From: Loxodes magnus
Taxonomy: Eukaryota; Ciliophora; Karyorelictea; Loxodida; Loxodidae
Length of the DNA: 64,000 nt
Assembly: GCA_946699065.1 (NCBI GenBank)
Contig: CAMPDV010000233.1
Location: 248,001 to 312,000 of the forward strand
Reading direction: 5' to 3'
A program made the position numbers and the translations under genes. The notes beneath the pieces were generated by a model. The model worked only from the letters and a program-made list of their open reading frames with translations, ran no database searches and was not told the origin of the DNA. Position 1 is the first letter of the stretch, and each line of letters opens with the position of its first letter. Positions 2,228 through 57,650 of this stretch are shown in pieces.

Positions 2228-5200
2228 TTATTATTGTCTGTCTAACTTAAATTGCACTTTCTTCTGCTAAAAGATGCTCTTAATATCCTAAATATCTAAA
2301 GAAATTTCTAAATATTTTATTGTTTTTTCAAAATTTTCTTCTGGTTCAGGATCCTCATCTATGCTTGTTATTCTTATTGGATAAGTTTCTCCTTGAAAAC
2401 ATTTCTCTAAATATTATATTTCCTACTGACTTTTTATCTCAGGTATATCATTTTCTGAATTTTTATTCATCTAAATATTTAATTGAAGATTTTCTTCTTA
2501 CAAATTTGATTTTACACTTGGAAATTTGACTTAAATAAACTCCTATTTTTCTATTTTTTATTTAGTTATTTGTGAGAATTCTTCTTTTATAGCTTTATTT
2601 TATTCTTCTTCTTCGCCAACTCTTTTAAACATATCTTGATTGATTTTAGAATATTTCAGTTTAAACTCTTGAAAGACTTTTATTCAATATTTTTGTTTTC
2701 CTTTTTACTAATTTTTGATATACTATTGATGTAAATCTTCGACATTTTTATCACAAAGAAGATAAAAATCTATTTTTTTTAAGAGATCCGTTATTTCAGT
2801 CTAATCAGTAAACTGCTACATTTCTTCACTTATGCATAATTCTTAGTCTTTGGTTCATAAATCCTTTAAGGTATTTTAATTTTATTTTTTATCCTTTTAA
2901 TTACCTTTTATTATATTTTGCTTCTTTTGTTTCTTTTTATTATTCTTTTTAATCTCTTACTCTTTATTCTTCTCCCATTCCTTAACAATACTCACTAGTT
3001 TTAATCCTTTTTTGAAGCAGTTTAATTTATATCAGAGTTATGAAGATTTTTTTTAGAGTATAGATCCAATTTCTTCAATTAATTTTCAACAGCATTTGAA
3101 TATGAAATAGAAATTTGAAAAAAGAAGTAAAATGAATACTATAATGTCTATAGCGTAATAACGTTAGCCAGAATCAAAGTAAATTCCCAAATATAGAATA
3201 AAAGCTGCAATGTACATATAATTAATTTCTAGATTATTCAGCTCTTTATTTACATAAGGCTTATACTTATTTTAAAGCTTAATGCTGCCTATCAGTATTA
3301 GTATTAAGATTCAGTATTAGAATATTAGAGTTGTTTTCTATAGAAATATGAATACTGATGAAATAGCATATTTTTCATATATCTTTATTAACTCTCAGAA
3401 GTAAAACTCATTTTTATATCCAATTGTGAGAAATCCAAATTGTTTTTTTATTTAATCTAATTATAGTTCTAATTTATGTTTCCTAAGGTATATATAAATT
3501 AAGAAAGGAACTAAAATACCATAAACCAATAGTCCTGGAAGAGATACAGCCAAAGCAAATGTTAAATGCTTACCTTTTCAGCATTCTATATCAGGATATG
3601 CATTCAAAACTGTTCTATTTTCTGAAATAGACTAACAGCTAAATGTTCCAAAAAGAGTTTTGATTATATTAGTGTTAATTTGAAAGAAGGAAATACTTAA
3701 CACTGAAATAAATACATTTATATTAAACTTTCTCCTTCTTATCATTGACCAAAGAAATAAAACTACAAACGAAAAACAAAATATTACTATAGGTAATAGT
3801 GCTGTAGATAAAGTCTTATAGTAATACCTATTTTCTTCTTCCCAATCCATGCAGTCAAATTTAAAATTATTTGCTGTTCCAGTAGTTGAATTGAACTTTT
3901 CATTTACTTAGAATAGATTTAATAAAGTCTGAGGCCAATTAAAATTGAAATTCTGAATTAAAGAAGTAAACTGCATGTAATTTATAAAAATCCTTCAATA
4001 AACACTTAAATATTCATCTTTTTTATGTGAATTTATTGTCCGATAAACTTAATAGACTATGTAACCTATAAATATTGCTATAATAAAGAGAGCTTAAATG
4101 GTTGAAACATATTTTTATGGACATCTTTGACATATATTATCACCATCCTTTCTTCAATCTTACTCGCAAACGTCACATAAAACTCCTTTATGTCCTTTTG
4201 CACAACCTCCTCCATTTATTAAGCTTTTCAAATTTAAGGAAGATTTTCTTTTATCAGATCCAGATGCTTCAAGATATTAAGTGATTTTTGTTTCTTTCAA
4301 ATATATTCCCCTACATGCTTTTTAAGTAGGACACTTAAAAATTTTATCTGTGTTAACATTTTCTCTTCAATATCCTTATTTTGGAGTTATTAAATCACCA
4401 CCGTAACATGTTGCTCCTTCCATGCATTCATTACAATCAGAATCATTTTTTTTTAAAGAATATTCTCCATATCTACAATTCTGACACTCATTTCCATCTA
4501 CGAATATTTACCCTCGCAAGCATTTTTGTATTTTTACGTATATTTATAGATCATTAGAATATTAACTAGATTGAAAAAGCTTTTATCAATTGCATTAGTT
4601 TCTAAATTCAATGTTACGTTATCTCCAGGTTTACCTTTTATTACTAAATCTCTATTGTCAAAAATTCCATACTATGAATATATTTTTGTTTTACCTGCCA
4701 ATTCTGCATTGTCCTTAGTAAAGATTTGAGCAATTGATGAGTTATCCGTTTTTACAATTTAACCATAAAAATCTGTAATGTATATGACACTCTCTGGAAC
4801 TTATTATCCAGGCAATAAAGAAATCTATAAATTCCTTTTTTTTTATTTTATTTGCAATAACCTAAAACATCATCAATATAACTGATATTAAGCATATAAG
4901 GAAAAGCAGCTAAGTTATTTCCATAGTAAGCTATATTATTTTAGAAGTACTAACAAATTTCTGATTCATTTACTCTAGGTATTAATTAAGGAATAGTTCC
5001 GTATATTGAAATTGCTCCTCCTTCACTGTATTAGTTAGTGATTTTGTTGTTTATAAAGCTGTTATTTTCAATAGAGTACTTACAAAGATATGTTCTATCA
5101 CATTCTAATCTTAAAGCTCCACCTTTTGAAATAAATGAATCTTGACCTTCTATTTTATTGTTTAGAAACTAGTTTTTTGAGAATGTGATATTTGCATTCT

Positions 5201-8200
5201 TGCAAAATCCTGCACCTCCATGTTCTGAAGCAACATTGTTTTCAAAAGTATTGTTAGACAGTTCATATTTTCCTTGGAGTAAATAATCATTTAGAATTGC
5301 AAAGCAAGATCCTGATTTAGATTTTTAGTTAGAGCAGTTAGAATTACTCATTTTCATTAAGGAATTTAGACTGAAAATAGCAGAGCCATAAGTACTATCA
5401 CTTTAACCAAAAGAGAGATTTATTTTGTCTAAGTATAAAATGCTTTCTGTTATAGCCAGAGCTGTATTATTATAGTTACTTAAACTACTTTATTTCATTT
5501 CCAAGCGTGAATTTTAAATAAATATAATAGACCCATAACTTCTAGATCTAGAGTATTAAAACTACGCATTAGAAATTGTTAGATTAGTTTGATAAGCGTA
5601 AATTGCTCCTCCTTATTCACTATCCATATTATAAAAATTAGTATTGAAAGCTTTGAAGGTAGAATTTTATAAGTAAATAGCTCCGCCTCATATACTTGTT
5701 CCGTTATTAAAAAGAGAACTGGAAATATAAATTTCAGATCAAAAGTTACTTGCAATGAAAGCTCCAGAATAAGATGTTTGATTATGGAAAGTTGAACTTT
5801 CAATATTAATAGAAAAGTTCCAAGCCATTATTCCCGAAGTAGATCCAGTTACTTAATTTTCATACATTTGAAAGTTTAACAGATTTAGGTAACTTTAATA
5901 TACGAAAATCATAGAAGTTCAACCAATATTCTTATAAAACTAGGTGTTCTATATAATACTTTTTTCTTATAATTTAGAAGTTCATATACTAATAATACCC
6001 AAATTTTTTACTTTGTTGTTGAAAATTAAAGAATCGTGTATCGCAAATTTCGCGTTTTATATGTAAAGGAAAGTTCCATCGTCGGAGGTACTATTTGTAA
6101 AATTAGATTTATATGCTTAAAAGTTACTATTTAGTTAAAGGTATCCAACTCCTCCTTTATCTATTGCTTAGTTTTAGTTACATAAAACTTATCGGAAAGT
6201 TAGTGTAGAATTTAGCATATGGAAAACAGCACCTTCTTCTGCTTTATTATTTGAAAACTCTGAATATTAGATGGAAATATTAGATATATATGATTTGATA
6301 ACTCCACCTATTGAGGCATTATTTCCTTTACATTTTATTTACTAAATGGCTATCTTATTTACCTGTGAAAATGAAAACACTGCTCCATTAGTAGCTTTAT
6401 TATTGGTGAAATTACATTTTTAAATACTTATATTTTAATCCGAATTTGCTTCTATAACACCTCCTGTACTTTCAGCTGAGTTGCTTGTGAAAGTGCATTA
6501 CACTAATGAATAATTAGAAAATTGACTATTTATTGAAGCTCCTTTCAATGCTTTATTATTCTAAAACTAAGAATTTTAAATTTAAGCTTTTACACTTTTT
6601 AAATCTAAAATGGATCCTTTTTTAGCATCATTATTTATAAATTAGCAATCCATTATATTAAAATATTCGCCAACAACTCCAATTAAAACTCCTTCCCTGA
6701 TTATGTTTCTTTCTATTTTAGTTTAGTAAATTTCCAATTTTGCTTCTTTAGTTCCTATTAGCTAAATATCAGCTTAGTTATATGAAAAATTATTATATCG
6801 TATGCCCATATACTTAGTCTATTTAGCCTAGATAAGTGAATTCGCGTAGTTTACCTTAAATATGCAGAATTCCAAAGATAAGTAATTTGAACTAGTAGCT
6901 TCTAGTAAGTTTCCAATAGGAGCAGTATTTTAAGTAAGCTAAATTTGATTAAATAAAGTATCAGTGCTTTATAAGAATAAAACAGATCCATACTAAGCTT
7001 CATTTTCCTCTATTTCACTATTAGTTAAGTTTAGAAATGAGTTTTGAAATACAAATATTACAGCTCCATTTCCAGCTTTATTTCTTAAAAACATGCAATT
7101 TTCTATCAAAAAATTAGTTTAAGAGCCAAATATATTTCCACCAAAATTTTCAGCTAAATTCAAGTTAAATTAGCTTTTAAAAATGTAAACTTAAGAATTC
7201 ATAGAAAATAAGGGGGCACCATACTTAGCTTTGCATTATTCAACTTAAATATTTTTAATATTTAAATTTCCATCTTTCTAGTAAATAAAGCCACCTTCTT
7301 CTATAGCTTAGTTTTTAAAGCTTCTAGTATTTTCTATTGAAACTTTTGATTATCAATTAAATAAAAGGCCACCTTTTCTTGCTATATTCTCTTATGCATT
7401 AAGTTAAGTAATTTAAGCATCTGAATTGTATAAAAATAAGCTTCCTGAATCATAAGCATTATTCTATTTTATTTATAGAAGATTCAAGTAAAGCTTATTT
7501 TGATATTAGAAGTAAGCTACACTTCCCTAGAAGGCTTCGTTAAGCAGGAAGGAATTATTTTGAATAAAAGATTCTTGCTAGAGTAAATATTAATCAAAAT
7601 AGAATACTCCTCCCATTAATGAGGCACTACTTTTTTCAAATTAACTATTTGATATTGTTTAAATGCTTGAAAAACCTGAAAACAAAAATCCTCCGTTTCC
7701 TTAAATAGCTTTACTATTTTATGAAGTTATATAGTTTATCAGTTTAATGTTTGAATATTCCATATATACCGCCACCTGATACCAGAGCTTAACTTTAAAT
7801 AAAACTGCAATTTTCAATTAGTTATATTTATGATTCAAATAAGGCTAATACTCCTCCTTAAGCTGTTACATTACTAATGGAAAATAGGTTATTTTTTATG
7901 TAACTTAGTTCGGTATTTTTTAAATATATGCTTCCTCCTTATTGAGCTTCACTGGAGTTAAATTCATTATCATTGATGCCTTAACTTATAATGCTGTTTT
8001 AAATGAAAAGTACTCCTCCCGAACTTCTTGCTGCGCTTAATAAGAAAGAGCAATTTTACAACGAAGATAACTTGGAAGCAAGTAAATACATAAATCCTCC
8101 ATTTCCATATACTGCCTTACTATATTTAATTTTAGTATTTTTAATTTCTTTTATTTAAGAAAATTACACACTTAAAGACCCTCCATCTCATTAAGCAGAA

Positions 8201-11200
8201 TTCTCATAAAAGAAGCAATTATCGATTTGAATATCTAATGAATCTATTAAAAAAATAGCTCCTCCAGATGTTAATGCTGAGTTGTTGATAAACGTATTAT
8301 TAATGACTGAAATGGATCATGATTGTTCTATATAAATAGCTCCTCCTTACTATTGAGCTGTGTTGTTTTCAAAGAAATTATTGTAAATCATAATTTCTGA
8401 ATAATCCCATAAAAAACTAAGCGAACCTCCTAATTAAGCCTTATTCGATAAGAAGTAGTTGTTAGTGAAATTCTATATTGTTGAAATAAACGCAAAAAGA
8501 AATCCTCCTCATCCATACAAAGCTTAATTTTAAATAGCGTTTATGTTATTGAAAATATTAAATATTATTAAATTGATAGTCTAAAGCATCAATATCTGCT
8601 TTACTAAAGATTTATCTTGTAGCCAAACCAAGTAAATCCATAAACTTGATAAGGCCCGAATCCACCAATTCCCAATTGCGATTCATTACATTACCTTAGT
8701 TAATGCAAGCACATGTCTACAACAACTTCACTTACCAATAAGGCTCCATTGCTGCAAAGCATGCTCCTAATTTATAGTTAATAATCATTTCTACAAGTCT
8801 TCACGAAATATAAACACTAAAATCCCTTGCGTAACTTTACTGCCAATATCTTAAGATATTGCATGACAATCTTACAACTATCATGTTATAAGCCGCAAAA
8901 AACTTGTATGTCTCCAAAAAATTCTTCCCAGCACCTTCTTTGCAATAGTCCAACTAAAAGTTTAACAGAACAAAAGTTCCAGACTGCAAAAAAGTGACTA
9001 AGTAAGAATTTATTTTCGACTACAGAAAGGCGCCAATTTTCCATAAAATGATTACTTAAACATTGGACGATCGAGTCTAGAATTCACATAAAAGCTCCGG
9101 AATTTGCTGGAATGGTCTGCCCAGCGTAGTAGAGTCCTTTACGGAAACCTTTGCAAGTTTCTGGAATTTATTTTCCCAGAAACTGAGTATTAAAAAATAC
9201 GTCCGAGTCCGGAATCAATTGGATTCGTCTAAACTGATCAATTCTAGTGGCTGCTGGGAAAATATAAGCCTCACGCAGGTGAAATTCAGAATTCAACCCC
9301 ATTCTGAAAATCCACCAGAACTTTTGTCCATCCATATATGCATAAAATATTGTTATTGAAAATATTAATTGAAGAATCCTCAGCATAAATTCCTCCTCCA
9401 TAATTGTATGCATAATTTCCAGAGAAAGTGCAGTTTATTAAATTAATTATGTTTGAATTTACTAAACATAAAGCTCCTCCTAAGTATGAGACATTGTTTT
9501 ATGTAAAGTTATTATTTAAAACAGAATTAATAACTGATCTTCACATAATTATTGCTCCTCCTTGCTCAGCTGAATTATTTAAGAAACTATTATTCTCTAT
9601 TTTTTCAATATTAGTATAACGTCCAAGAAATGCCGCACCTCCATTTAACCTTGCTTTATTAAAGGAAAGAGTGTTATTGCTAATTACTTCTACAATCGAA
9701 TCATACAGACATAAAAATCCACCATAACCTTATATTACTTCGTTTTAATAGCCTTTATTGTTTATTAATTACGTAACATATGAGTACTCTATATTAATAG
9801 CGCCACCAGAAAATTCTTAAACTTAATTTTGAGTAAAAATGCAGTTTTCAATAGATTCTATTTCTAAATAGTTTAAATTAATAGCTCCTCCAAAATATGT
9901 AGCATTATTTTAGTTAAAATTGCATCATTGAAAGGAATTTATAGTTGAATAATAACTATCAACTGCACCTCCGTTCAGCTAAGCTGAATTATTGTAAAAG
10001 TTAGTAAATTCAATTTTTAAAGAAATAATACCATGTCAGATAAATATTGCTCCGCCTGAAAAAGCTGCTTTATTTAAAGTAAAATTGCATCTACTTATTG
10101 AATTCATATCAGAATAATATAGCATTAAGAATCCTCCATAATATTATTTCACTTCGTTTTTTTCACCAGTAACATTACTAAGATTTTAAATTATCGAAAA
10201 TTCTAATCCTATTGCTCCCCCATATCAGTGCAACGCAGAATTTTCTATGAAATAGCTGTTTTCTATTACATCAATCCATGAATTTTATAAAAAAGAAGCC
10301 CCTCCTACAAGTAAAGCATTGTTTAGACTAAAGTTGCGTTAATTAATGGAAGTTATAATTGATGTTTCAGAATCTAATGCACCTCCATTTAACTAAGCTG
10401 AATTATTGGTAAAGTTAGTAAATTGAATGTTTTCTTTAATTTAGCTATTATAAGCAGAAAATACTCCTCCAGATTAACCTGCTTTATTTAAAGAAAAGCT
10501 ACAATTACTTATTTAAGTAATGTTAGAATAATCAAAGTTTAGAAATCCTCCATAACTATATTTTGCTTCGTTTTCTTCACCATTAGCATTCCTTATGTAT
10601 CTGATATTTGAGTTATTTGCTTCAATACATCCTCAATATTTATGAACTGCATAGTTTTAAAAAAAATTGCAATGCTCTATAGATTAATCTACGAATCATA
10701 AATAGCAATAGCACCTCCAGATAATTAAGCATTGCTTTAACTAAAATTACTTAATTTAAATTAGTTAGCCATAGAATTTAAAAAAAGCAAAGCTCCGCCA
10801 CTTTTTTAAGCTACATTATTAAAGAAAAAATTATTATAAACGCTTAGTGTTATGTTACTCTAAACTAAATATAAAGCTCCTCCAGATTAATTTGCTTCGT
10901 TTTATGAAAATCTACTTGCATCAATTTTTTTAATTTAAGATTAAAAGATATAAGAGAATCCTTCATTCTAAGCTTAGTTATTTAAACCTTAAACGTTTTC
11001 TATTTGTGAAATTAATGAAATTTTTATAAATAAAGCTCCACCTTAGCTTGATGCTTTATTTTCAGTAAAAACACAATTTTTCATAAAAAGTTCAGTATTT
11101 TATTTTGCATAGAGAGTTCCACCCTCTTCAGCTTAATTTTGATTAAATGAACTATTTTATATTGAAGCAAATGATTTATATAAATACATAGCTCCTCCAA

Positions 11201-11959
11201 ATTTTGCATGGTTTAAATTAAAAGTGCAATTATTTATATAAGTTCTAGACTCTATAACCATTAAGGATCCTCCTGAATATCCCTTGTTTTATTCAAATGT
11301 AGTATTTGACGCATTAAAATTTGAGTATTCGAAAAGAATGCATCCATAGCTTACTGAGTTAGTTTTAAATTATGTGTTAACCAGTGAAAACTAACTTTCG
11401 AAGCTTTAAAAAATAAGACCCTCATTGTTAATAAACTAGCTATCCTTAATATAGACTTCAGAGCTTTATATATAGAATATTTATCCATTCTAATCTGCCT
11501 TATTATTCTAAACTTATAAATGCTCAAAAATTATGTGACTACTATCAATTAAAAAGTAATTGCTACCTTAAGGGGAAAAATGTTCTATTTAAACTGAAGT
11601 AATTACTAACCTTGAATATTAAGTTGAATAGATAAAGACGCAATTTGTTTATTCGCAATTGTTATCCTAAATCAAGTTGTTTCCATTTATTGATAAATTT
11701 GTAAATTATAGATAATCTTAGCTGAGGAAAAAATAAGGCTTAGCTGATTCTAAAATGAGAGTGGTTTTACTTTATTTATTTAAACACATAGTTGAGCTTT
11801 AATCTTGCTATGAGCATTAATAGCCAAATAATTTAATTGATTTGAAATATTGCTATTCTCATCCTCCTCTGAATATTTCGCATTAATCTTAGCTTTCAGT
11901 TTAATTTAAGCAACCAAGAGAGTGATCATGTTAGGAAATGTATATTGAGTGATTTTCAT
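2228..11959 (-). CDS. Giant beta-helix / Cys-rich / multi-pass membrane surface protein
   Basis: This is a ciliate-type surface protein read with TAA/TAG as Gln and TGA as Trp. The start at 11959 gives MKITQYTFPNMITLLVA, a plausible signal segment. A frame change near 11.7-11.8 kb suggests a short intron. From about 11500 to 5000, tens of repeats follow the pattern FxxNxA..GGAI(Y/F), as in Chlamydia Pmp-like or pectate-lyase-like parallel beta-helices. Next comes a domain containing LPGQQVPESV and DFYGQ, then a Cys-rich module (about 4560-4330) with CxxC and CYGG motifs closing in GYWRENV, then several membrane helices (about 4100-3050) containing EFYFWELIKIYEK, then a Lys/Glu-rich cytosolic tail. 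The frame is continuous from about 5000 to 2228. The family is large in ciliates and its ligand is unknown. The end is placed at tandem TAA codons after an acidic tail; a TGA at 1937-1939 is the alternative. An insert of about 0.8 kb (8562-9368) lies inside. The expected product is about 2,970 residues. Confidence 0.85.
8544..9368. other. About 0.8 kb insert between 18-bp direct repeats inside the giant gene
   Basis: The 18-mer TGTTATTGAAAATATTAA occurs at 8544-8561 and again at 9351-9368, 807 bp apart. On the minus strand the beta-helix repeats run cleanly up to the right copy (GGGIYAEDSSINIFNN) and resume cleanly at the left copy (INAIQNQALYGWGGF). The DNA between does not continue the repeats in that frame, is visibly richer in G/C and uses different codons. 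Removing one repeat plus the insert joins the two halves in frame. An internal eliminated sequence, a mobile insertion with a long target duplication, or captured coding DNA are all possible. A different minus-strand frame of the insert reads as a balanced, Cys-containing polypeptide (for example CSNGALLVSEVVVDMCLHQL), which fits captured coding DNA. Confidence 0.65.
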
Positions 11960-12876
11960 TTTCGCTTGCTTAATAAATAGTCTCAGATACAGACGTAAAG
12001 GGAGAATCAAAAGAGCCATCAGACTATGTAAGTCCCAAAGTTTCAAAAACTTCAGGAATTGTAACATAAAAGTCCTCCGACTTAACTACATAGTTAGAAA
12101 CCAAGAGAGCGATTTACACAGATATAAGTGTGACTTAGACTGTGTACATGATTATTATAATTAAGTCTTAAAGATAGTTATTTAAGGGCAAAATTTAACA
12201 AATAATTAAAGTTTAAATCAATTTTTAAGAAAATAATTGTTGGATTTATTAAGTTACTTTATCTTCATTTATGTATTACCATTTACCTAAAATCTCTCTT
12301 AAGCAAAATAAAGTTTAAGTTAGATTCTTATAATTCCTTTAACTTACTAATAAAGAAAAAAATCTCTGCACTGGCAGAAAGGCATTTTGACTCTTTCTGC
12401 CTTTTAATTTTTATTTAAATGCTAAACTTAAGAAAGAAGCTTTATGCAATTTTTGGACTGTTCTTTTATTTTTTTTCTTAGATATCTTCTATTAAATCTT
12501 CTCCATTTTGAGAATGCTTAATTAAGCTAAAATAGCCTTAAGCTAAGATATAAAATTGATGTCTAAAAAGTTTGAATAAATAGGTTTATTTGTCTTAAGG
12601 AATCTATTAGCTAGAATAAATACAAAAGGAAGATAAATTCAAGCTAAGAAACTACTCTTAATTAGCTAATAAAGAGTATTCTATTTTAGTAGATTTGCTT
12701 ATCTTTATTTATCTAATAGCTTCTACTTTACCTCTATGTTTGAGCTTTTCCATTTATTTTTATTTAAATGTGATGAAATTATTTGATAAAAAAATATAAG
12801 CTTAACTTAAAGTTGATAGTTGTAAGTATAATAATTAACTAGTTGTAAGTGTAAGCTTAAATAATAATTTTAAAGT
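11960..12876. other. Intergenic region between divergent genes
   Basis: This separates the 5' end of the giant minus-strand gene from the plus-strand membrane-protein frame. It should contain both promoters, but no ciliate promoter motif could be recognised. Short open frames near 11949-12164 were not accepted as genes. The only distinct structure is the hairpin at 12373-12401. Confidence 0.45.
12373..12401 (+). other. 9-bp perfect inverted repeat followed by a T-run
   Basis: GGCAGAAAG at 12373-12381 is the exact reverse complement of CTTTCTGCC at 12393-12401, with an 11-nt loop. TTTTAATTTTT follows directly. This could be the 3' end of a small Pol III or other structured RNA, or a terminator-like element for a neighbouring transcript. 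No conserved RNA family was recognised. Confidence 0.4.
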
Positions 12877-15531: not shown

Positions 15532-16640
15532 ATGACTCTGTAATAGAAGTCCAAGTATTATTAATCTAGCATCAAGAAAGATAATAATATGCTTATAGTT
15601 AAAGAAGCCAACTCTTTAAAGTTAAAATTTTTCATATTAGAGTAACTAGAATAAATAAGCTTGCAAAGCGATCAATTAGCTGGAGATAGTAGCAGGCGTT
15701 AGATATTTCTGAAATTATTTATTTTATAATCACAATCAAAGTGTTTCAATGCATCAAAGTTCTTTGACTATATACAAATATTAGAAAAATTTTATAAGAG
15801 AACATTTTAAATTTAAGAAACAAAAATAGCAAAAGCCTATAAAATTTAGAAAGTTTCTAAAGAGATAAATAAATCTTCTTTCAGATAAGAGAGAAACTTA
15901 TAAATGAAGACTTTTTAAGTTGTAGATAGAGGATATTATATTAATAAATAAATTTAGGCTTATTTAATCTTTCAATTAAATAAATAATGAGGATTATAGT
16001 TAAGACAATCTGTCCATTACATTTTTAGGAATTTTTATCTTAAAAGGTTGGCTTTAAAAAAGCAATGCTAAGAAAAATTTAATTTATAAAGGAACAACTC
16101 AACCTAGTGGAAGGAATAGAATCCAGATTTATGTCCTAAGAAAGAGAACTAAGCGCTTTCTGAAACATATCTTAAGACCAGAGTAGCTAATCCTAAAATT
16201 AGCTTCAGAAACAATCTTAGTATTAGACTGGAAATACTAGAAAAGAAATTAGATGAACAAAGGAGAGATCCAATGATGATTGAAGAGACCAATAGGAAGA
16301 CTAAAGTTAAACTCCAAAAAGTAGTGAAGAAATGTTACTACTGCAATTCGACAGAACACTTATGAAGACGCTGCAAGGAATTCCAAAATTTCAAGACGTA
16401 GTACTGGAATAAATAAAGAGCCATACAAACACAGTAGAGGAAGAAAAAACAAATGTAGTAGAGACAAATAAGAGAAAGATTATACTTAAATGAATAAGGA
16501 TACATTTAAAAGAGAAAATTTAATTAGAAATAAGGCTAGATCCGGAAATGACAAGAGTAATGGGAGGAGTAGAGACATCTAAAACTTTATTTTTAAAACT
16601 GGAGCAATCTGGTGTCCAGCATGAAGAGGTGAAAATCCTC
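15532..16640 (+). CDS. CCHC zinc-knuckle ORF (first paralogue), array copy 1
   Basis: One frame runs from ATG 15532 to about 16640. It reads a basic, Gln/Lys-rich protein with a helical segment (LSIRLEILEKKLDE) and then a CX2CX4HX4C knuckle, CYYCNSTEHLWRRC, at about 16333-16374. The knuckle contains an in-frame TGA at a Trp position. A Lys/Arg/Gln-rich C-terminus follows. CCHC knuckles bind single-stranded nucleic acid and occur in retroelement Gag or ORF1 proteins and in some host RNA-binding proteins. No reverse transcriptase, protease or integrase was recognised nearby. It converges on the MORN/F-box gene, about 110 bp away. It is related to the ORF at 22305, with the same spacing of a helical segment before the knuckle. 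The start is uncertain. Confidence 0.55.
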
Positions 16641-16750: not shown

Positions 16751-19525
16751 TCATATTTCATTTGAATCAGGACTATCTAATTCTAACTCACAGAGCTTGT
16801 TATATTCTTATATTACTTATCCGTTAAATGATTTAAGATTAATAAATTTCTACTTTATTAAGATGCAGCAATAATCCTCATTATATAGTAAAGCATTATG
16901 ATTCATCTAGTTATTCTATAAATAGTAAAACTAATTAATATTCTACTTAGCTCTTATTTTCAAACTTTTCAAGTTGCTATAGATTTTATAAGGCTCATTA
17001 TTTTCGCCAGCATATTTAAAAGACTCTTACATATTCTGACCAAACTATGTGAAATCTAGTGAATTTAAAGCATTGCAATTAGATACTATTTAGTGAACAT
17101 CTTGGTTAAATAGCTACAATCCAATAAGTTGCAGACTCCTTAAAGTTTTTATTTAAACTACTTCGCTTATTCAATTTTATTCTTTTATTTAGATTAAAGT
17201 TAAATTTAAAGTATGCAAATACTAGCATGATTGCTTTATAACTCTCAAGGAGTTAGATTTTACTTCATCAACATTATTAAGTACTATTAATCTTAGATTT
17301 TAGCAATTCTAAAACATGAAAGCTAAATCCTCGTCTTTCACTTTTTTCATATCGCTTATACTCAACTATTCATATTTACGTCCATTATCACCTATTTAGC
17401 GAAGAGCCTAACTTGAAAGCTGCTATAAATCTTTCAATGTAAGTGATTTTAAATTAGGAGTTTATGTGAGTAAAAGCTTTAGAAGCTCATCATTGAATTA
17501 CTAGCAGCTATCAATACTAACGGTCTAAAGATAAATCAATTATTAAGTTGCCAGTTTACTAAAGTCTGATTTGTCAAATTATCCTTTTAATCTTAGAAGT
17601 TGTATATTCTTATTGTCCTTATATTTACTTAGTATTTTCTCAGCCGAATCATATTAATCTGAATCAATTTAGCATAAGTTAGGACATAAATCTATAAACT
17701 TCTGATTGCTTTTATTAATTCTAAGCTACTAAATGTTTCTTCCTTTTCTTTCTAAGTATTGCTTTATAGAGTTATTATCAATTTAAGAACCTTCTATTGT
17801 TAAAGATTAAATATTTAGGTCTAAACAAAATTCATTAAGAAAGCTACCTTTTAGATTTATTTCCTTCATCTATAAACTTTTTATTTCTAAATGCTTTAAC
17901 TTTTAGAGACTACTTAAAAAGTATAAATCTTCGTCCTTTAAATGACAACAAAGAGTTAATTTTTCTAAGTCTAAGCAAGATAAAAAGTCAGGTAAAGCTA
18001 TTGTCTTGTGTTTGTCAATTAAAGTAAATTCCTGTAATTTATATCTCTTTCCTCTTTTAACTTCAGTTCATAACTTATTCAAAATTACTTTATAAAGCTA
18101 GAAATTTATTTAAGAGCAGAAACTCTGGGAAAGATGACTAGTATCGATTACTAATTTCCTTACATCTGATTATGAAATTTATTTAAGTATTCACTTTATT
18201 TTAGATTAGTCTATTTTTTAAACTTTAATCTCCAATTAGCTGAACTTATAGTTAAGTGACTAGAAATATTTGCTAACTTATTATAACTAGCAGATACTTT
18301 TTAAGCCAAGAAATTACGATATCTCTTATAATATATCTATCCTTCCTCAGAAATTTTATTAAATACTTCTTTCTTTATTTTTTTAAATTGAGAGATTGCT
18401 ATCATTTAATATTATAGAAACTTATGGAGTCTGTCTTGCAACTGTATACAGCTTAGAAAAATCCTTTTAACATTGAAACAATCCTTTTTCGTAAATACCT
18501 CCATCTTTAAAGATTAATTTTCCAATTCACTGTATTTTATCATCAGCAAACTATCCTTCATAGCTATCTCCGCTTTTGAATTTATAGACACCTTTTCCAT
18601 ATTTCTTATCTTGTATTCATTCTCCTATATAAATATCACCGTTTTTGTAGAAAAAAGTTCCGTTTCCTCATCTTAATCCTTCAAATCAATAGCCTTTGTA
18701 TTTTTCTCCATCACTATATTTATAAACTCCGTATTCTTAAAAAACATTATTGATCCAATTACCTTTATATTTTTCTTCATTTTCAAAGTATTAAATTCCA
18801 TTTCCTTACTTTTAATCGTTTTCTCAATTTCCATTATAGATTTCACCATTTTAATATTTATAAGTTCCTTCTCCATTTTTTTTGTCTTAAAATCATTCCC
18901 CATTATATTCCTCTCCTGTGGCAAAATGTTAAATTCCTTAGCCTTATCTTAAATTGCTATCTCAATAACCCTCATATATATCTCCGTTTTTATAGGAAAA
19001 AGTTCCCTTTCCATGCTTCTTATCGTTAAGTCACTCACCTTCATATTTTTCTTTGTTTTTATAAATTAAGGTTCCTTCTCCTTATTTTTTATTGCTTTTT
19101 CATTATCCTTCATACTTTTATCCACTCTTTAAAGTTAGAACACCAAATCCTTCTTTTTTATTATTTAACCATTCTCCTTCGTATTTTTTGCCATCTCCAA
19201 AAATTTAAGTTCCCCATCCTTATTTTTTACCTTTTAATCATTATCCTTCATATCTTTTATCCTTTTATTAAATGAGAACTCCATATCCATGTTTTTTATC
19301 ACTTAATCAATCACCTTCGTAAACTTCTCCATTTATACTCTAAAGTTTTCCTTTTCCATGCCTTTTACCATTTTATAACTGGCCTTCATAAAGATCTTCA
19401 TTTTCGTAGTTTACAATGATATAGCCTTGTTTAATTTCTTCGATAGAGCTTTCTTGTTATTATCCTTCATTCTTTTAAAGAATATTTGGTTATAAAATAT
19501 CCTATTAATTAGAATGGTCTGACAT
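16751..19525 (-). CDS. MORN repeat - F-box - LRR protein, array copy 1 (intact, 924 aa)
   Basis: The start is ATG 19525 (MSDHSNQQ) and the stop is TGA 16751-16753, in one uninterrupted frame of 925 codons. Residues 46-344 form 13 consecutive 23-residue MORN repeats of the form YEGxW..DKKxGxG. The repeat Trp is TGA in nine repeats and TGG in two. Residues about 394-430 form an F-box (DILQEISQFLGLKSICQL, then VSKYF). Residues about 500-870 are leucine-rich repeats of the FBXL/AMN1 type (PNLKSLTLKDL, NLRLIVLNNVD). By family knowledge, MORN repeats bind membranes or phosphoinositides, and F-box/LRR proteins choose substrates for SCF ubiquitin ligases. A membrane- or cortex-bound ligase adaptor is therefore inferred. 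The stop assignment is less certain than the domains. Confidence 0.88.
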
Positions 19526-22188: not shown

Positions 22189-22254
22189 GACAGTGTGGCC
22201 GAGTGCTCTAAGGCGCTAGTCTTTCGGGGCGTCGGTTCAAATCCCACCGCTGTC
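22189..22254 (+). pseudogene. tRNA-Ser-like sequence lacking the anticodon arm, array copy 1
   Basis: It has the same 66-nt layout as the copy at 583: GACAGTG/CGCTGTC acceptor, A-box-like TGGCCGAGTGC, no anticodon stem-loop, B-box GGTTCAAATCC. The T-stem reads GTCGG/CCCAC, with one mismatch relative to the copy at 583. A run of eight T residues two bases past the 3' end would terminate Pol III. The CCHC ORF begins about 50 bp downstream. Confidence 0.8.
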
Positions 22255-22257
22255 ACT

Positions 22258-22304: not shown

Positions 22305-23384
22305 GAAAACTGCCATCAAAAAGGGCTACAACCTCCTTAGAATAGGAGAGAAAACCAGAAGCACATATTCTCATCACGTCTTCTTCAACTTACCGCTCTT
22401 CTTAATAAAAATAACCAGAACTATCTAAAAGATTAGAAGAACTTATAAAAAATACTAACTCCTACAAATTAAAGCGAATCTCTTCCATCAAAGGACAAGT
22501 AAGAACAAGAATCAAAATTCAGAACAGAAAACTTAACACAGCTCTCAACACCTCCATTGAAAACTGAAAAAATAGACCACTCAACTGAATCGATAAAAAT
22601 AATAACTAAAAAATAAACGAAGAAGATGTAGCAGATAATTCAATATAGATACTATTACCTTTTATTTAGAAAATACTGAAATAGAATAAATGGACTCTTA
22701 TAAATAAAAAATGGAACAGCTAATTTATCAACTTATTAGAAACATAAAAAACTCGAAGAGGAATTAAACTCCCAGAAGGAAGAGATGCTTGTGTTAAGTC
22801 AGGATTTGATAAATCATGAGGATGAAGTCAGTATGGTAGACCGAAGAGCTAAATTCGGAGTTTATAGGCAAATTGTAAGTTTAGAGAATGATATTTGAAT
22901 AATGCAAGAGCAAGACGAGAAAAACTGAGGGAAATTAGATTTAAGACTAAAATTAATAGAAGAAAATCTGTAGAAGCTTTCATAAGGAACTCCAATGGAA
23001 ATAGAGAAAAAAGAAAAGATATTTCCTAGAGCAAGAAAAAGATGTTACATTTGCAACAGCACTTGACATTTATGACGGAAATGTCCCCAATAGAAAAAAA
23101 TAAGAATGAATATCTGGAGAAATGTTAACTAGTAGCAACTAAAGTAACAAGCGAAGGTATTCTTCCCATCGGTAAATGGGAAAATCTGGAAGAAAAAAGA
23201 AATTCTCAACTCAGATTATATAAAAGAGAAGAGCCAAGAAAAAAGTGCAATGCAAGGACAGAACATGAAGAACGGAGATTTTATACATTTAAAATTTCAA
23301 TTAAACCGGAAAGCTAACAGTTATTTTAATGATTAAATAAATATAAAAGTAAATCAATTTGTGAACACAAAGTATTCTCGATGA
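22305..23384 (+). CDS. Coiled-coil CCHC zinc-knuckle ORF (second paralogue), array copy 1
   Basis: One frame runs about 360 codons to TGA 23382-23384. A Ser/Thr/Pro/Lys-rich N-terminal half is followed by a coiled coil (KKLEEELNSQKEEMLVLSQD) and then a CX2CX4HX4C knuckle, CYICNSTWHLWRKC, at about 23043-23084. Two knuckle Trp codons and nearby Trp codons are TGA. The segment before the knuckle (LDLRLKLIEENLQKL) resembles that of the ORF at 15532. The ORF starts just past the tRNA-like sequence and ends before a GC-richer island. Gag/ORF1-like or host nucleic-acid binding is possible. No polymerase domain was seen. No convincing ATG marks the start, so the 5' limit is approximate. Confidence 0.55.
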
Positions 23385-28598: not shown

Positions 28599-31304
28599 TC
28601 ATATTTCATTTGGATCAGGACTATCTAATTCTAACTCACAGAGCTTGTTATATTCTTATATTACTTATCCGTTAAATGATTTAAGATTAATAAATTTCTA
28701 CTTTATTAAGATGCAGCAATAATCCTTACTATATAGTAAAGCATTATGATTCATCTAGTTATTCTATAAATAGTAAAACTAATTAATATTCTACTTAGCT
28801 CTTATTTTCAAACTTTTCAAGTTGCTATAGATTTTATAAGGCTCATTATTTTCGCCAGCATATTTAAAAGACTCTTACATATTCTGACCAAACTATGTGA
28901 AATCTAGTGAATTTAAAGCATTGCAATTAGATACTATTTAGTGAACATCTTGGTTAAATAGCTACAATCCAATAAGTTGCAGACTCCTTAAAGTTTTTAT
29001 TTAAACTACTTCGCTTATTCAATTTTATTCTTTTATTTAGATTAAAGTTAAATTTAAAGTATGCAAATACTAGCATGATTGCTTTATAACTCTCAAGGAG
29101 TTAGATTTTACTTCATCAACATTATTAAGTACTATTAATCTTAGATTTTAGCAATTCTAAAACATGAAAGCTAAATCCTCGTCTTTCACTTTTTTCATAT
29201 CGCTTATACTCAACTATTCATATTTACGTCCATTATCACCTATTTAGCGAAGAGCCTAACTTGAAAGCTGCTATAAATCTTTCAATGTAAGTGATTTTAA
29301 ATTAGGAGTTTATGTGAGTAAAAGCTTTAGAAGCTCATCATTGAATTACTAGCAGCTATCAATACTAACGGTCTAAAGATAAATCAATTATTAAGTTGCC
29401 AGTTTACTAAAGTCTGATTTGTCAAATTATCCTTTTAATCTTAGAAGTTGTATATTCTTATTGTCCTTATATTTACTTAGTATTTTCTCAGCCGAATCAT
29501 ATTAATCTGAATCAATTTAGCATAAGTTAGGACATAAATCTATAAACTTCTGATTGCTTTTATTAATTCTAAGCTACTAAATGTTTCTTCCTTTTCTTTC
29601 TAAGTATTGCTTTATAGAGTTATTATCAATTTAAGAACCTTCTATTGTTAAAGATTAAATATTTAGGTCTAAACAAAATTCATTAAGAAAGCTACCTTTT
29701 AGATTTATTTCCTTCATCTATAAACTTTTTATTTCTAAATGCTTTAACTTTTAGAGACTACTTAAAAAGTATAAATCTTCGTCCTTTAAATGACAACAAA
29801 GAGTTAATTTTTCTAAGTCTAAGCAAGATAAAAAGTCAGGTAAAGCTATTGTCTTGTGTTTGTCAATTAAAGTAAATTCCTGTAATTTATATCTCTTTCC
29901 TCTTTTAACTTCAGTTCATAACTTATTCAAAATTACTTTATAAAGCTAGAAATTTATTTAAGAGCAGAAACTCTGGGAAAGATGACTAGTATCGATTACT
30001 AATTTCCTTACATCTGATTATGAAATTTATTTAAGTATTCACTTTATTTTAGATTAGTCTATTTTTTAAACTTTAATCTCCAATTAGCTGAACTTATAGT
30101 TAAGTGACTAGAAATATTTGCTAACTTATTATAACTAGCAGATACTTTTTAAGCCAAGAAATTACGATATCTCTTATAATATATCTATCCTTCCTCAGAA
30201 ATTTTATTAAATACTTCTTTCTTTATTTTTTTAAATTGAGAGATTGCTATCATTTAATATTATAGAAACTTATGGAGTCTGTCTTGCAACTGTATACAGC
30301 TTAGAAAAATCCTTTTAACATTGAAACAATCCTTTTTCGTAAATACCTCCATCTTTAAAGATTAATTTTCCAATTCACTGTATTTTATCATCAGCAAACT
30401 ATCCTTCATAGCTATCTCCGCTTTTGAATTTATAGACACCTTTTCCATATTTCTTATCTTGTATTCATTCTCCTATATAAATATCACCGTTTTTGTAGAA
30501 AAAAGTTCCGTTTCCTCATCTTAATCCTTCAAATCAATAGCCTTTGTATTTTTCTCCATCACTATATTTATAAACTCCGTATTCTTAAAAAACATTATTG
30601 ATCCAATTACCTTTATATTTTTCTTCATCTTCAAAGTATTAAATTCCATTTCCTTACTTTTAATTTTTTTTTCAATTTCCATTATAGATTTCACCATTTT
30701 CATATTTATAAGTTCCTTCTCCATGCTTTTTATCTTAAAATCATTCCCCATTATATTCCTCTCCTGTGGCAAAATGTAAAATTCCTTAGCCTTATCTTAA
30801 ATTGCTATCTCAATAACCCTCATATATATCTCCGTTTTTATAGGAAAAAGTTCCCTTTCCATGCTTCTTATCGTTAAGTCACTCACCTTCATATTTTTCT
30901 TTGTTTTTATAAATTAAGGTTCCTTCTCCTTATTTTTTATTGCTTTTTCATTATCCTTCATACTTTTATCCACTCTTTAAAGTTAGAACACCAAATCCTT
31001 CTTTTTTATTATTTAACCATTCTCCTTCATATCTTTTGCCAGTTGCGAAAATTTAAGTTCCCCATCCTTATCTTTTATCTTTGAATCATTGTCCTTCATA
31101 TATTTTATCCTTTTATTAAATGAGAACTCCATATCCATGCCTTTTACCATTTTATAACTGGCCTTCATAAAGATCTTCATTTTTGTAGTTTACAATGATA
31201 TAGCCTTGTTTAATTTCTTCGATAGAGCTTTCTTGTTATTATCCTTCATTCTTTTAAAGAATATTTGGTTATAAAATATCCTATTAATTAGAATGGTCTG
31301 ACAT
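28599..31304 (-). CDS. MORN - F-box - LRR protein, array copy 2 (intact, 901 aa)
   Basis: ATG 31304 to TGA 28599-28601, 902 codons in one frame. It has 12 MORN repeats; one 23-residue repeat present in copy 1 is missing. The repeats flanking the missing one differ from copy 1 at several bases, so this is a distinct allele or paralogue. F-box and LRR regions match copy 1. Confidence 0.85.
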
Positions 31305-33968: not shown

Positions 33969-34034
33969 GACAGTGTGGCCGAGTGCTCTAAGGCGCTAGT
34001 CTTTCGGGGCGTCGGTTCAAATCCCACCGCTGTC
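33969..34034 (+). pseudogene. tRNA-Ser-like sequence lacking the anticodon arm, array copy 2
   Basis: Identical to 22189-22254, including the A-box-like and B-box words and the T-run that follows. Confidence 0.8.
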
Positions 34035-34084
34035 ACTTTTTTTTAACAAGAGTAACAAATAAATCAATATATATAAATCAATAA

Positions 34085-40376: not shown

Positions 40377-43081
40377 TCATATTTCATTTGGATCAGGACT
40401 ATCTAATTCTAACTCACAGAGCTTGTTATATTCTTATATTACTTATCCGTTAAATGATTTAAGATTAATAAATTTCTACTTTATTAAGATGCAGCAATAA
40501 TCCTTACTATATAGTAAAGCATTATGATTCATCTAGTTATTCTATAAATAGTAAAACTAATTAATATTCTACTTAGCTCTTATTTTCAAACTTTTCAAGT
40601 TGCTATAGATTTTATAAGGCTCATTATTTTCGCCAGCATATTTAAAAGACTCTTACATATTCTGACCAAACTATGTGAAATCTAGTGAATTTAAAGCATT
40701 GCAATTAGATACTATTTAGTGAACATCTTGGTTAAATAGCTACAATCCAATAAGTTGCAGACTCCTTAAAGTTTTTATTTAAACTACTTCGCTTATTCAA
40801 TTTTATTCTTTTATTTAGATTAAAGTTAAATTTAAAGTATGCAAATACTAGCATGATTGCTTTATAACTCTCAAGGAGTTAGATTTTACTTCATCAACAT
40901 TATTAAGTACTATTAATCTTAGATTTTAGCAATTCTAAAACATGAAAGCTAAATCCTCGTCTTTCACTTTTTTCATATCGCTTATACTCAACTATTCATA
41001 TTACGTCCATTATCACCTATTTAGCGAAGAGCCTAACTTGAAAGCTGCTATAAATCTTTCAATGTAAGTGATTTTAAATTAGGAGTTTATGTGAGTAAAG
41101 CTTTAGAAGCTCATCATTGAATTACTAGCAGCTATCAATACTAACGGTCTAAAGATAAATCAATTATTAAGTTGCCAGTTTACTAAAGTCTGATTTGTCA
41201 AATTATCCTTTTAATCTTAGAAGTTGTATATTCTTATTGTCCTTATATTTACTTAGTATTTTCTCAGCCGAATCATATTAATCTGAATCAATTTAGCATA
41301 AGTTAGGACATAAATCTATAACTTCTGATTGCTTTTATTAATTCTAAGCTACTAAATGTTTCTTCCTTTTCTTTCTAAGTATTGCTTTTATAGAGTTATT
41401 ATCAATTTAAGAACCTTCTATTGTTAAAGATTAAATATTTAGGTCTAAACAAAATTCATTAAGAAAGCTACCTTTTAGATTTATTTCCTTCATCTATAAA
41501 CTTTTTATTTCTAATGCTTTAACTTTTAGAGACTACTTAAAAAGTATAAATCTTCGTCCTTTAAATGACAACAAAGAGTTAATTTTTCTAAGTCTAAGCA
41601 AGATAAAAAGTCAGGTAAAGCTATTGTCTTGTGTTTGTCAATTAAAGTAAATTCCTGTAATTTATATCTCTTTCCTCTTTTAACTTCAGTTCATAACTTA
41701 TTCAAAATTACTTTATAAAGCTAGAAATTTATTTAAGAGCAGAAACTCTGGGAAAGATGACTAGTATCGATTACTAATTTCCTTACATCTGATTATGAAA
41801 TTTATTTAAGTATTCACTTTATTTTAGATTAGTCTATTTTTTAAACTTTAATCTCCAATTAGCTGAACTTATAGTTAAGTGACTAGAAATATTTGCTAAC
41901 TTATTATAACTAGCAGATACTTTTTAAGCCAAGAAATTACGATATCTCTTATAATATATCTATCCTTCCTCAGAAATTTTATTAAATACTTCTTTCTTTA
42001 TTTTTTTAAATTGAGAGATTGCTATCATTTAATATTATAGAAACTTATGGAGTCTGTCTTGCAACTGTATACAGCTTAGAAAAATCCTTTTAACATTGAA
42101 ACAATCCTTTTTCGTAAATACCTCCATCTTTAAAGATTAATTTTCCAATTCACTGTATTTTATCATCAGCAAACTATCCTTCATAGCTATCTCCGCTTTT
42201 GAATTTATAGACACCTTTTCCATATTTCTTATCTTGTATTCATTCTCCTATATAAATATCACCGTTTTTGTAGAAAAAAGTTCCGTTTCCTCATCTTAAT
42301 CCTTCAAATCAATAGCCTTTGTATTTTTCTCCATCACTATATTTATAAACTCCGTATTCTTAAAAAACATTATTGATCCAATTACCTTTATATTTTTCTT
42401 CATCTTCAAAGTATTAAATTCCATTTCCTTACTTTTAATTTTTTTTTCAATTTCCATTATAGATTTCACCATTTTCATATTTATAAGTTCCTTCTCCATG
42501 CTTTTTATCTTAAAATCATTCCCCATTATATTCCTCTCCTGTGGCAAAATGTAAAATTCCTTAGCCTTATCTTAAATTGCTATCTCAATAACCCTCATAT
42601 ATATCTCCGTTTTTATAGGAAAAAGTTCCCTTTCCATGCTTCTTATCGTTTAAGTCACTCACCTTCATATTTTTCTTTGTTTTTATAAATTAAGGTTCCT
42701 TCTCCTTATTTTTTTATTGCTTTTTCATTATCCTTCATACTTTTATCCACTCTTTAAAGTTAGAACACCAAATCCTTCTTTTTTATTATTTAACCATTCT
42801 CCTTCATATCTTTTGCCAGTTGCGAAAATTTAAGTTCCCCATCCTTATCTTTTATCTTTGAATCATTGTCCTTCATATATTTTATCCTTTTATTAAATGA
42901 GAACTCCATATCCATGCCTTTTACCATTTTATAACTGGCCTTCATAAAGATCTTCATTTTTGTAGTTTACAATGATATAGCCTTGTTTAATTTCTTCGAT
43001 AGAGCTTTCTTGTTATTATCCTTCATTCTTTTAAAGAATATTTGGTTATAAAATATCCTATTAATTAGAATGGTCTGACAT
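40377..43081 (-). CDS. MORN - F-box - LRR gene, array copy 3 (frame disturbed)
   Basis: ATG 43081 to TGA 40377-40379, 2,705 bp, one base short of copy 2. At least seven single-base length differences from copy 2 lie in the gene, most in runs of A or T (for example TTACGTCCAT near 41000, GTTTAAGTC near 42650 and TTTTTTTATTGC near 42715). They disrupt the frame if real. The pattern looks like uncorrected long-read errors more than decay, since substitutions are nearly absent. It has 12 MORN repeats. Confidence 0.75.
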
Positions 43082-45745: not shown

Positions 45746-45811
45746 GACAGTGTGGCCGAGTGCTCTAAGGCGCTAGTCTTTCGGGGCGTCGGTTCAAATC
45801 CCACCGCTGTC
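45746..45811 (+). pseudogene. tRNA-Ser-like sequence lacking the anticodon arm, array copy 3
   Basis: Identical to 22189-22254, followed by the same T-run. Confidence 0.8.
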
Positions 45812-45861
45812 ACTTTTTTTTAACAAGAGTAACAAATAAATCAATATATATAAATCAATAA

Positions 45862-52157: not shown

Positions 52158-54863
52158 TCATATTTCATTTGGATCAGGACTATCTAATTCTAACTCACAG
52201 AGCTTGTTATATTCTTATATTACTTATCCGTTAAATGATTTAAGATTAATAAATTTCTACTTTATTAAGATGCAGCAATAATCCTTACTATATAGTAAAG
52301 CATTATGATTCATCTAGTTATTCTATAAATAGTAAAACTAATTAATATTCTACTTAGCTCTTATTTTCAAACTTTTCAAGTTGCTATAGATTTTATAAGG
52401 CTCATTATTTTCGCCAGCATATTTAAAAGACTCTTACATATTCTGACCAAACTATGTGAAATCTAGTGAATTTAAAGCATTGCAATTAGATACTATTTAG
52501 TGAACATCTTGGTTAAATAGCTACAATCCAATAAGTTGCAGACTCTTAAAGTTTTTATTTAAACTACTTCGCTTATTCAATTTTATTCTTTTATTTAGAT
52601 TAAAGTTAAATTTAAAGTATGCAAATACTAGCATGATTGCTTTATAACTCTCAAGGAGTTAGATTTTACTTCATCAACATTATTAAGTACTATTAATCTT
52701 AGATTTTAGCAATTCTAAAACATGAAAGCTAAATCCTCGTCTTTCACTTTTTTCATATCGCTTATACTCAACTATTCATATTTACGTCCATTATCACCTA
52801 TTTAGCGAAGAGCCTAACTTGAAAGCTGCTATAAATCTTTCAATGTAAGTGATTTTAAATTAGGAGTTTATGTGAGTAAAAGCTTTAGAAGCTCATCATT
52901 GAATTACTAGCAGCTATCAATACTAACGGTCTAAAGATAAATCAATTATTAAGTTGCCAGTTTACTAAAGTCTGATTTGTCAAATTATCCTTTTAATCTT
53001 AGAAGTTGTATATTCTTATTGTCCTTATATTTACTTAGTATTTTCTCAGCCGAATCATATTAATCTGAATCAATTTAGCATAAGTTAGGACATAAATCTA
53101 TAAACTTCTGATTGCTTTTATTAATTCTAAGCTACTAAATGTTTCTTCCTTTTCTTTCTAAGTATTGCTTTATAGAGTTATTATCAATTTAAGAACCTTC
53201 TATTGTTAAAGATTAAATATTTAGGTCTAAACAAAATTCATTAAGAAAGCTACCTTTTAGATTTATTTCCTTCATCTATAAACTTTTTATTTCTAAATGC
53301 TTTAACTTTTAGAGACTACTTAAAAAGTATAAATCTTCGTCCTTTAAATGACAACAAAGAGTTAATTTTTCTAAGTCTAAGCAAGATAAAAAGTCAGGTA
53401 AAGCTATTGTCTTGTGTTTGTCAATTAAAGTAAATTCCTGTAATTTATATCTCTTTCCTCTTTTAACTTCAGTTCATAACTTATTCAAAATTACTTTATA
53501 AAGCTAGAAATTTATTTAAGAGCAGAAACTCTGGGAAAGATGACTAGTATCGATTACTAATTTCCTTACATCTGATTATGAAATTTATTTAAGTATTCAC
53601 TTTATTTTAGATTAGTCTATTTTTTAAACTTTAATCTCCAATTAGCTGAACTTATAGTTAAGTGACTAGAAATATTTGCTAACTTATTATAACTAGCAGA
53701 TACTTTTTAAGCCAAGAAATTACGATATCTCTTATAATATATCTATCCTTCCTCAGAAATTTTATTAAATACTTCTTTCTTTATTTTTTTAAATTGAGAG
53801 ATTGCTATCATTTAATATTATAGAAACTTATGGAGTCTGTCTTGCAACTGTATACAGCTTAGAAAAATCCTTTTAACATTGAAACAATCCTTTTTCGTAA
53901 ATACCTCCATCTTTAAAGATTAATTTTCCAATTCACTGTATTTTATCATCAGCAAACTATCCTTCATAGCTATCTCTCCGCTTTTGAATTTATAGACACC
54001 TTTTCCATATTTCTTATCTTGTATTCATTCTCCTATATAAATATCACCGTTTTTGTAGAAAAAAGTTCCGTTTCCTCATCTTAATCCTTCAAATCAATAG
54101 CCTTTGTATTTTTTTCCATCACTATATTTATAAACTCCGTATTCTTAAAAACATTATTGATCCAATTACCTTTATATTTTTCTTCATCTTCAAAGTATTA
54201 AATTCCATTTCCTTACTTTTTAATTTTTTTTTCAATTTCCATTATAGATTTCACCATTTTCATATTTATAAGTTCCTTCTCCATGCTTTTTATCTTAAAA
54301 TCATTCCCCATTATATTCCTCTCCTGTGGCAAAATGTAAAATTCCTTAGCCTTATCTTAATTGCTATCTCAATAACCCTCATATATATCTCCGTTTTTAT
54401 AGGAAAAAGTTCCCTTTCCATGCTTCTTATCGTTAAGTCACTCACCTTCATATTTTTCTTTGTTTTTATAAATTAAGGTTCCTTCTCCTTATTTTTTATT
54501 GCTTTTTCATTATCCTTCATACTTTTATCCACTCTTTAAAGTTAGAACACCAAATCCTTCTTTTTTATTATTTAACCATTCTCCTTCATATCTTTTGCCA
54601 GTTGCGAAAATTTAAGTTCCCCATCCTTATCTTTTATCTTTGAATCATTGTCCTTCATATATTTTATCCTTTTATTAAATGAGAACTCCATATCCATGCC
54701 TTTTACCATTTTATAACTGGCCTTCATAAAGATCTTCATTTTTGTAGTTTACAATGATATAGCCTTGTTTAATTTCTTCGATAGAGCTTTCTTGTTATTA
54801 TCCTTCATTCTTTTAAAGAATATTTGGTTATAAAATATCCTATTAATTAGAATGGTCTGACAT
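52158..54863 (-). CDS. MORN - F-box - LRR gene, array copy 4 (frame disturbed)
   Basis: ATG 54863 to TGA 52158-52160, 2,706 bp. Total length equals copy 2, but compensating length changes are present: a lost C near 52545, an extra CT near 53975, and gains or losses in A/T runs near 54149, 54222 and 54358. Local frame is lost between them if these are real. It has 12 MORN repeats. Confidence 0.75.
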
Positions 54864-57534: not shown

Positions 57535-57600
57535 GACAGTGTGGCCGAGTGCTCTAAGGCGCTAGTCTTTCGGGGCGTCGGTTCAAATCCCACCGCTGTC
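57535..57600 (+). pseudogene. tRNA-Ser-like sequence lacking the anticodon arm, array copy 4
   Basis: Identical to 22189-22254, followed by the same T-run. Confidence 0.8.
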
Positions 57601-57650
57601 ACTTTTTTTTAACAAGAGTAACAAATAAATCAATATATATAAATCAATAA

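Follow-up and report, generated by a model that had tools for sequence, protein, structure and literature searches.

Genes and repeats of the window

The window analyzed here, a 64,000-nucleotide stretch of the Loxodes magnus contig CAMPDV010000233.1 (hereafter C233), holds a gene for a MORN-repeat/LRR protein, a giant gene with a repetitive and a cysteine-rich part, CCHC zinc-knuckle motifs and short tRNA-like stretches (Table 1). Under NCBI table 11, the window contains no open reading frame of at least 150 amino acids. Read under table 27, the MORN gene runs on the minus strand from an ATG at position 19525 to a final TGA, a span of 925 codons including the last. This reading matches the Pfam families MORN (E = 7.6e-54) and LRR_At5g56370 (E = 1.5e-7), and a weak F-box-like match between the two parts (F-box, 0.0028) lies below the Pfam cut-off. 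The MORN region is composed of 13 YxGxx units, namely 11 with Trp, one YEGQL and one YEGQF. Across the window, three of the seven stretches searched against Pfam gave no match.

Much of the window (positions 14016–63934) is a tandem array with a unit of approximately 11.78 kb, present in four to five copies. Among 20 of the 41 repeat families listed, identity is mostly 93–100%, with some at 80–87%, and is lower in the MORN repeats. Copies of the MORN gene continue along C233 as far as C233:437458. The third and fourth copies in the window may be interrupted or decayed, because their matches to the first copy are split over frames.

No tRNA was found in the window by ARAGORN. Rfam marked five tRNA-like stretches of 67 nt, and a zinc-knuckle motif lies about 850 nt beyond each of the last four. 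The anticodon region is shorter than in the Rfam model in the two alignments viewed, and we do not link these stretches to decoding; each may be the leading end of a mobile element.

Table 1. Features of the window, with coordinates counted from its first nucleotide (w, TGA).
Feature	Position	Strand	Details
MORN-repeat/LRR protein gene	16751..19525	-	924 aa under table 27; from translation, codon counts and Pfam
MORN repeats	18617..19309	-	Trp of YxGxW is TGA in 9/11, TGG in 2/11
TGA taken as the true stop of the MORN gene	16751..16753	-	from codon positions and downstream GC
MORN gene, array copy 2	28605..31298	-	95.6% protein identity
MORN gene, array copy 3	41499..43075	-	matches split over frames
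MORN gene, array copy 4	52520..54857	-	matches split over frames
Giant gene in several coding/frame segments, with beta-helix/Chlam_PMP-type repeats and a Cys-rich part	2285..11966	-	TGA as Trp
Giant gene motif GYwREN	4358-4375	-	
Giant gene motif CEqDwRK	4148-4168	-	
Giant gene motif FYFwELIK	3383-3406	-	
CCHC zinc knuckle CYYCNSTEHLwRRC	16333..16374	+	
CCHC zinc knuckle CYICNSTwHLwRKC	23043..23084	+	same at 34823, 46600 and 58389
67-nt tRNA-like stretches	583-649, 22189-22255, 33969-34035, 45746-45812, 57535-57601		Rfam

Reassigned codons and gene ends

The Trp of the MORN motif is encoded by TGA at codons 73, 96, 142, 165, 188, 211, 234, 280 and 303, and by TGG at codons 119 and 257. Over its whole length the gene contains 16 TGA codons (15 internal plus the last) and 3 TGG codons, along with 57 TAA, 23 TAG, 9 CAA and 8 CAG. 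A preliminary description, made from the sequence, had reported TGA in nine and TGG in two of the YEGxW motifs, TAA or TAG at Gln positions of the same gene, and TGA in the motifs GYWREN, CEQDWRK and FYFWELIK of the giant protein. Our codon counts return the same nine and two among 11 motifs, TAA and TAG account for 80 of the 97 Gln codons under table 27, and all three giant-protein motifs were located with TGA.

The openness of the MORN frame proves nothing by itself because TAA occurs 26 to 65 times in each of the remaining frames of this gene region, versus 57 times in the coding frame. An open frame is uninformative where nothing is a stop, and codon meaning was therefore tested by homology.

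In this one gene, 140 codons separate the final TGA from the closest internal TGA upstream and 19 codons separate it from the closest TAA, a spacing compatible with the context-dependent stop published for L. magnus. The 60 nt 3' of the stop have a GC content of 16.7%, compared to 26.5% in the coding sequence. For L. magnus, internal UGA and UAA are described as depleted over roughly 20 codons ahead of the stop, and the median 3' UTR is given as 41 nt (PMC11441545). The gene ends that we read are TGA, both in the MORN genes and in five thioredoxin reductase (TrxR) loci, and probably in the eRF1 locus L011; these are few genes, read from genomic DNA.

These ends bear on whether the window might instead use the code of Condylostoma (table 28), where TGA, TAA and TAG would each be possible stops as well. 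The sense meanings of table 28 equal those of table 27 and are identical to those found here for all three codons. However, UAA and UAG are described as stops too in Condylostoma magnum (PMC4967479), whereas the ends read here, few as they are, are UGA, and L. magnus is itself described with UGA as its sole stop (PMC11441545). We therefore consider table 28 very unlikely for this DNA.

Codon meaning by homology

We aligned conserved genes from elsewhere in the genome to PDB chains. The PRP8 locus (contig C59), which is the single Pfam PROCN match in the genome, was compared with chain 6zym_A using query positions 136–1029 of 136–1405. Within this aligned part, TGA stands opposite Trp in 12 of 12 cases and TGG in 8 of 9. 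The thioredoxin reductase locus L068, aligned with chain 9uin_B, has five TGA codons: four are opposite Trp, and the remaining one, at the Sec position, lies opposite a Cys that stands for Sec in the printed chain. The eRF1 alignment to PDB is without any TGA. Chains 6zym_A, 9uin_B and 1dt9_A are all human.

When the PRP8, TrxR and eRF1 alignments are taken together, TAA is opposite Gln in 27 of 56 cases and TAG in 7 of 17. The columns of TAA and TAG are looser than those of TGA, and the standard Gln codons are loose as well, with CAA opposite Gln in 6 of 20 and CAG in 0 of 3; TGG is opposite Trp in 10 of 13. The queries in these alignments carried table-27 letters, which could slightly favor Trp and Gln, and an alignment of the MORN family was therefore run with the stop codons masked. 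This alignment comprised eight genes, the window gene and seven paralogues sharing 33.7 to 83.7% identity with it, drawn from a family of 87 listed matches, with TGA, TAA and TAG each entered as X.

The masked alignment has 822 TGA cells; each cell is an ordered pairing within one gene family, and the cells are not independent. TGA is found opposite TGA in 366, TGG in 130, Phe in 89 and Tyr in 51. Relative to background, TGG occurs at 28.5 times its expectation, with Phe second at 2.1 times. Five columns covering at least six genes contain TGA and TGG exclusively, and TGG is also present in 14 of the 41 TGA columns. CAA and CAG occur at 3.4 times expectation opposite TAA and at 3.0 times opposite TAG.

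A rival reading takes the internal stops for errors of sequencing or assembly, or the genes for pseudogenes, and the split-frame matches of the third and fourth MORN copies lend it some support. Against it, TGA occupies 12 conserved Trp sites in PRP8, a gene with a single match in the genome, and within the MORN family the codon that alternates with TGA is TGG rather than any codon at random. The TGA counts are also similar between copies: three full-length MORN copies on C233, including the window gene, have 15 each and a fourth has 14, while each of seven copies on C488 has 18. The preliminary description had named assembly errors as one finding that would overturn its reading; the PRP8 and TrxR alignments and the masked MORN-family alignment contradict them, and we regard errors or pseudogenes as extremely improbable. 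Equally improbable is a code like that of Blastocrithidia, with UGA as Trp and UAA/UAG as Glu: TAA is opposite Glu in 6 of 56 cases and TAG in 2 of 17 in the three conserved genes, far from the figures for Gln given above, enrichment opposite TAA in the masked alignment is 1.5 times for Glu against 3.4 times for Gln, and the tRNAs with anticodons UUA and CUA fit a tRNA-Gln pattern.

Decoding tRNAs and eRF1

The genome searched comprises 7843 contigs and 705,730,643 bases. The pattern for a tRNA-Gln bearing a UUA or CUA anticodon gave 248 matches, versus 0 in the reversed control. All three of the loci examined fold as tRNAs, and ARAGORN, run under the standard code, labels them Stop or Pyl. 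Their Gln identity, from which the ARAGORN label differs, we take from a tRNA-Gln consensus together with the codon columns.

A pattern for tRNA-Trp(UCA) returned 7 matches, fewer than the 28 of its reversed control, and none of the 7 was called a tRNA by ARAGORN. A stricter version gave three matches, all of them tRNA-Sec. Both patterns would miss a tRNA with an unusual loop. The tRNA-Trp(CCA) pattern, on the other hand, gave 130 matches versus 24 in the control, and 98 of the 100 listed among these 130 share one 30-nt core, on contigs C67 and C148. On C67, one identical tRNA is found in all 19 loci examined, with an anticodon stem of four pairs (drawn for L028); the C148 copies viewed have a four-pair stem too. 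The copy L054 (C110:470000-470250) possesses a full 5-bp anticodon stem and a mismatch in the T-stem, and the short stem of tRNA-Trp(CCA) is therefore not universal.

The tRNA-Trp(CCA) genes are arranged in two large tandem arrays. The first (C67:482323-491201) has 48 copies among 100 of the 130 matches, mostly spaced by ~187 nt, and the second (C148:155464-168939) has at least 50 copies, mostly spaced by ~241 nt.

Two copies of eRF1 lie approximately 35 kb apart on C196 (L010 and L011), and both retain NIKS. In L010, the copy of this pair identified by PDB comparison, the alignment to the PDB eRF1 places Ala at position 70 and shows FxCxxxF where the reference motif is YxCxxxF; NIKS and YxCxxxF are the motif names in use for human eRF1. 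The first match to the eRF1 family, on C2, was set aside since its translation, judged by eye, looks like pelota.

UGA in thioredoxin reductase

Of 13 Pyr_redox_dim loci, five (L064–L068) end in TGC TGA GGT TGA, the Gly-Cys-Sec-Gly-stop (GCUG) terminus of a selenoprotein thioredoxin reductase; this end is absent in the other eight. L066 and L067 are near identical, and the best PDB match of L068 is thioredoxin reductase 2 (E = 2.9e-161). The genome also contains three tRNA-Sec(UCA) genes (L012–L014) and SepSecS (E = 1.9e-104). Given these ends together with tRNA-Sec and SepSecS, UGA therefore appears to carry three meanings within one gene. Judging from its sequence, a single frame in L068 appears to use UGA as Trp at four conserved sites, as Sec in GCUG, and as the stop two codons further on. 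UGA codon triality has been described for C. magnum and Parduczia (Swart et al., 2016; PMC4967479), and Trp and Sec UGA codons are described within one gene for the Blastocrithidia SelTryp (PMC12153298).

Rfam found no SECIS in the five TrxR loci at E values up to 5. A hairpin with a GTGA core is present 3' of each of the five stops. Its folding z-scores, calculated for four sequences, are −4.28, −5.99, −2.06 and −2.96; out of 200 shuffles each, 0, 0, 10 and 1 reach an equally good fold (10 for L066). In all five loci, a further in-frame TGA is located three codons past the stop.

This arrangement touches on the published rule for L. magnus, by which UGA is Trp when distant from the poly(A) tail and the sole stop (PMC11441545). 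The SECIS-like hairpin fills ~100 nt after the stop, and the distance from the Sec and stop UGAs to the poly(A) tail would therefore exceed what a distance rule allows for stopping. Should the hairpin function as a SECIS, the TrxR 3' UTR would be longer than the 41-nt median, a length hard to reconcile with distance as the single criterion. It is conceivable, although on balance we doubt it, that with three meanings of UGA in one frame, closeness to the poly(A) tail is not the sole stop signal and that termination is aided by the hairpin or by the additional downstream UGA.

Discussion

We conclude that the L. magnus window almost certainly uses NCBI table 27, in which UAA and UAG encode Gln and UGA encodes Trp internally and serves as the stop near the 3' end of the mRNA. 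The preliminary reading of TGA as Trp and of TAA and TAG as Gln is upheld. For TGA it is borne out by 12 of 12 sites in PRP8, four of five in TrxR L068, the TGG enrichment in the masked MORN-family alignment and the tRNA set; for TAA and TAG the homology in conserved genes, the masked alignment and the tRNA set all agree.

In the mechanism that we propose, UAA and UAG would be read as Gln by tRNA-Gln-type tRNAs with the anticodons UUA and CUA; their genes were found, and their charging and decoding are presumed from these. Internal UGA would be read as Trp, most likely by the tRNA-Trp(CCA) with a four-pair anticodon stem, whose gene was likewise found; the ability of such a tRNA to read UGA is taken from literature on other species. 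A UGA close to the 3' end of the mRNA would terminate translation, following the rule published for L. magnus.

Use of this code by L. magnus has been published before, and the novelty of our results is limited to the gene examples. The published L. magnus macronuclear assembly, of 706 Mbp, is stated to use table 27 (PMC11441545). In comparison with table 27 as known from Loxodes and Parduczia, the genes described here are alike in UAA and UAG as Gln, in internal UGA as Trp and in the UGA at the gene ends that were read, and no difference was seen in the features tested. The tRNA-Trp(CCA) with a 4-bp stem is also shared, being cited for Loxodes by a 2026 paper (PMC13092985).

Resemblances extend to other lineages. 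In C. magnum, tRNA-Trp(UCA) is described as undetected, as was the case in our searches, and UGA is described as Trp, stop and Sec (PMC4967479). Blastocrithidia is likewise described with all three stops reassigned, UGA as Trp and a tRNA-Trp(CCA) with a 4-bp stem. The eRF1 residue at human position 70 is changed in both, to Gly (from Ser) in Blastocrithidia as described (PMC12153298) and to Ala here. However, in Blastocrithidia UAA and UAG are described as Glu, with UAA also a stop, whereas here they encode Gln. The preliminary description had held that codes of this kind are known only in karyorelicts and Condylostoma. Both groups are rightly named, but the restriction to them does not stand, as reassignment of all three stops is also described for Blastocrithidia and for Amoebophrya sp. 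ex K. veneficum.

Where no codon is reserved for stopping, the meaning of a codon can depend on its place in the message, and such place-dependent stop meaning was established earlier for karyorelicts and Condylostoma. The TrxR loci are concrete test genes, because a single codon in one mRNA appears to be contested between Trp, Sec and stop there, which makes the question of what decides its meaning directly testable.
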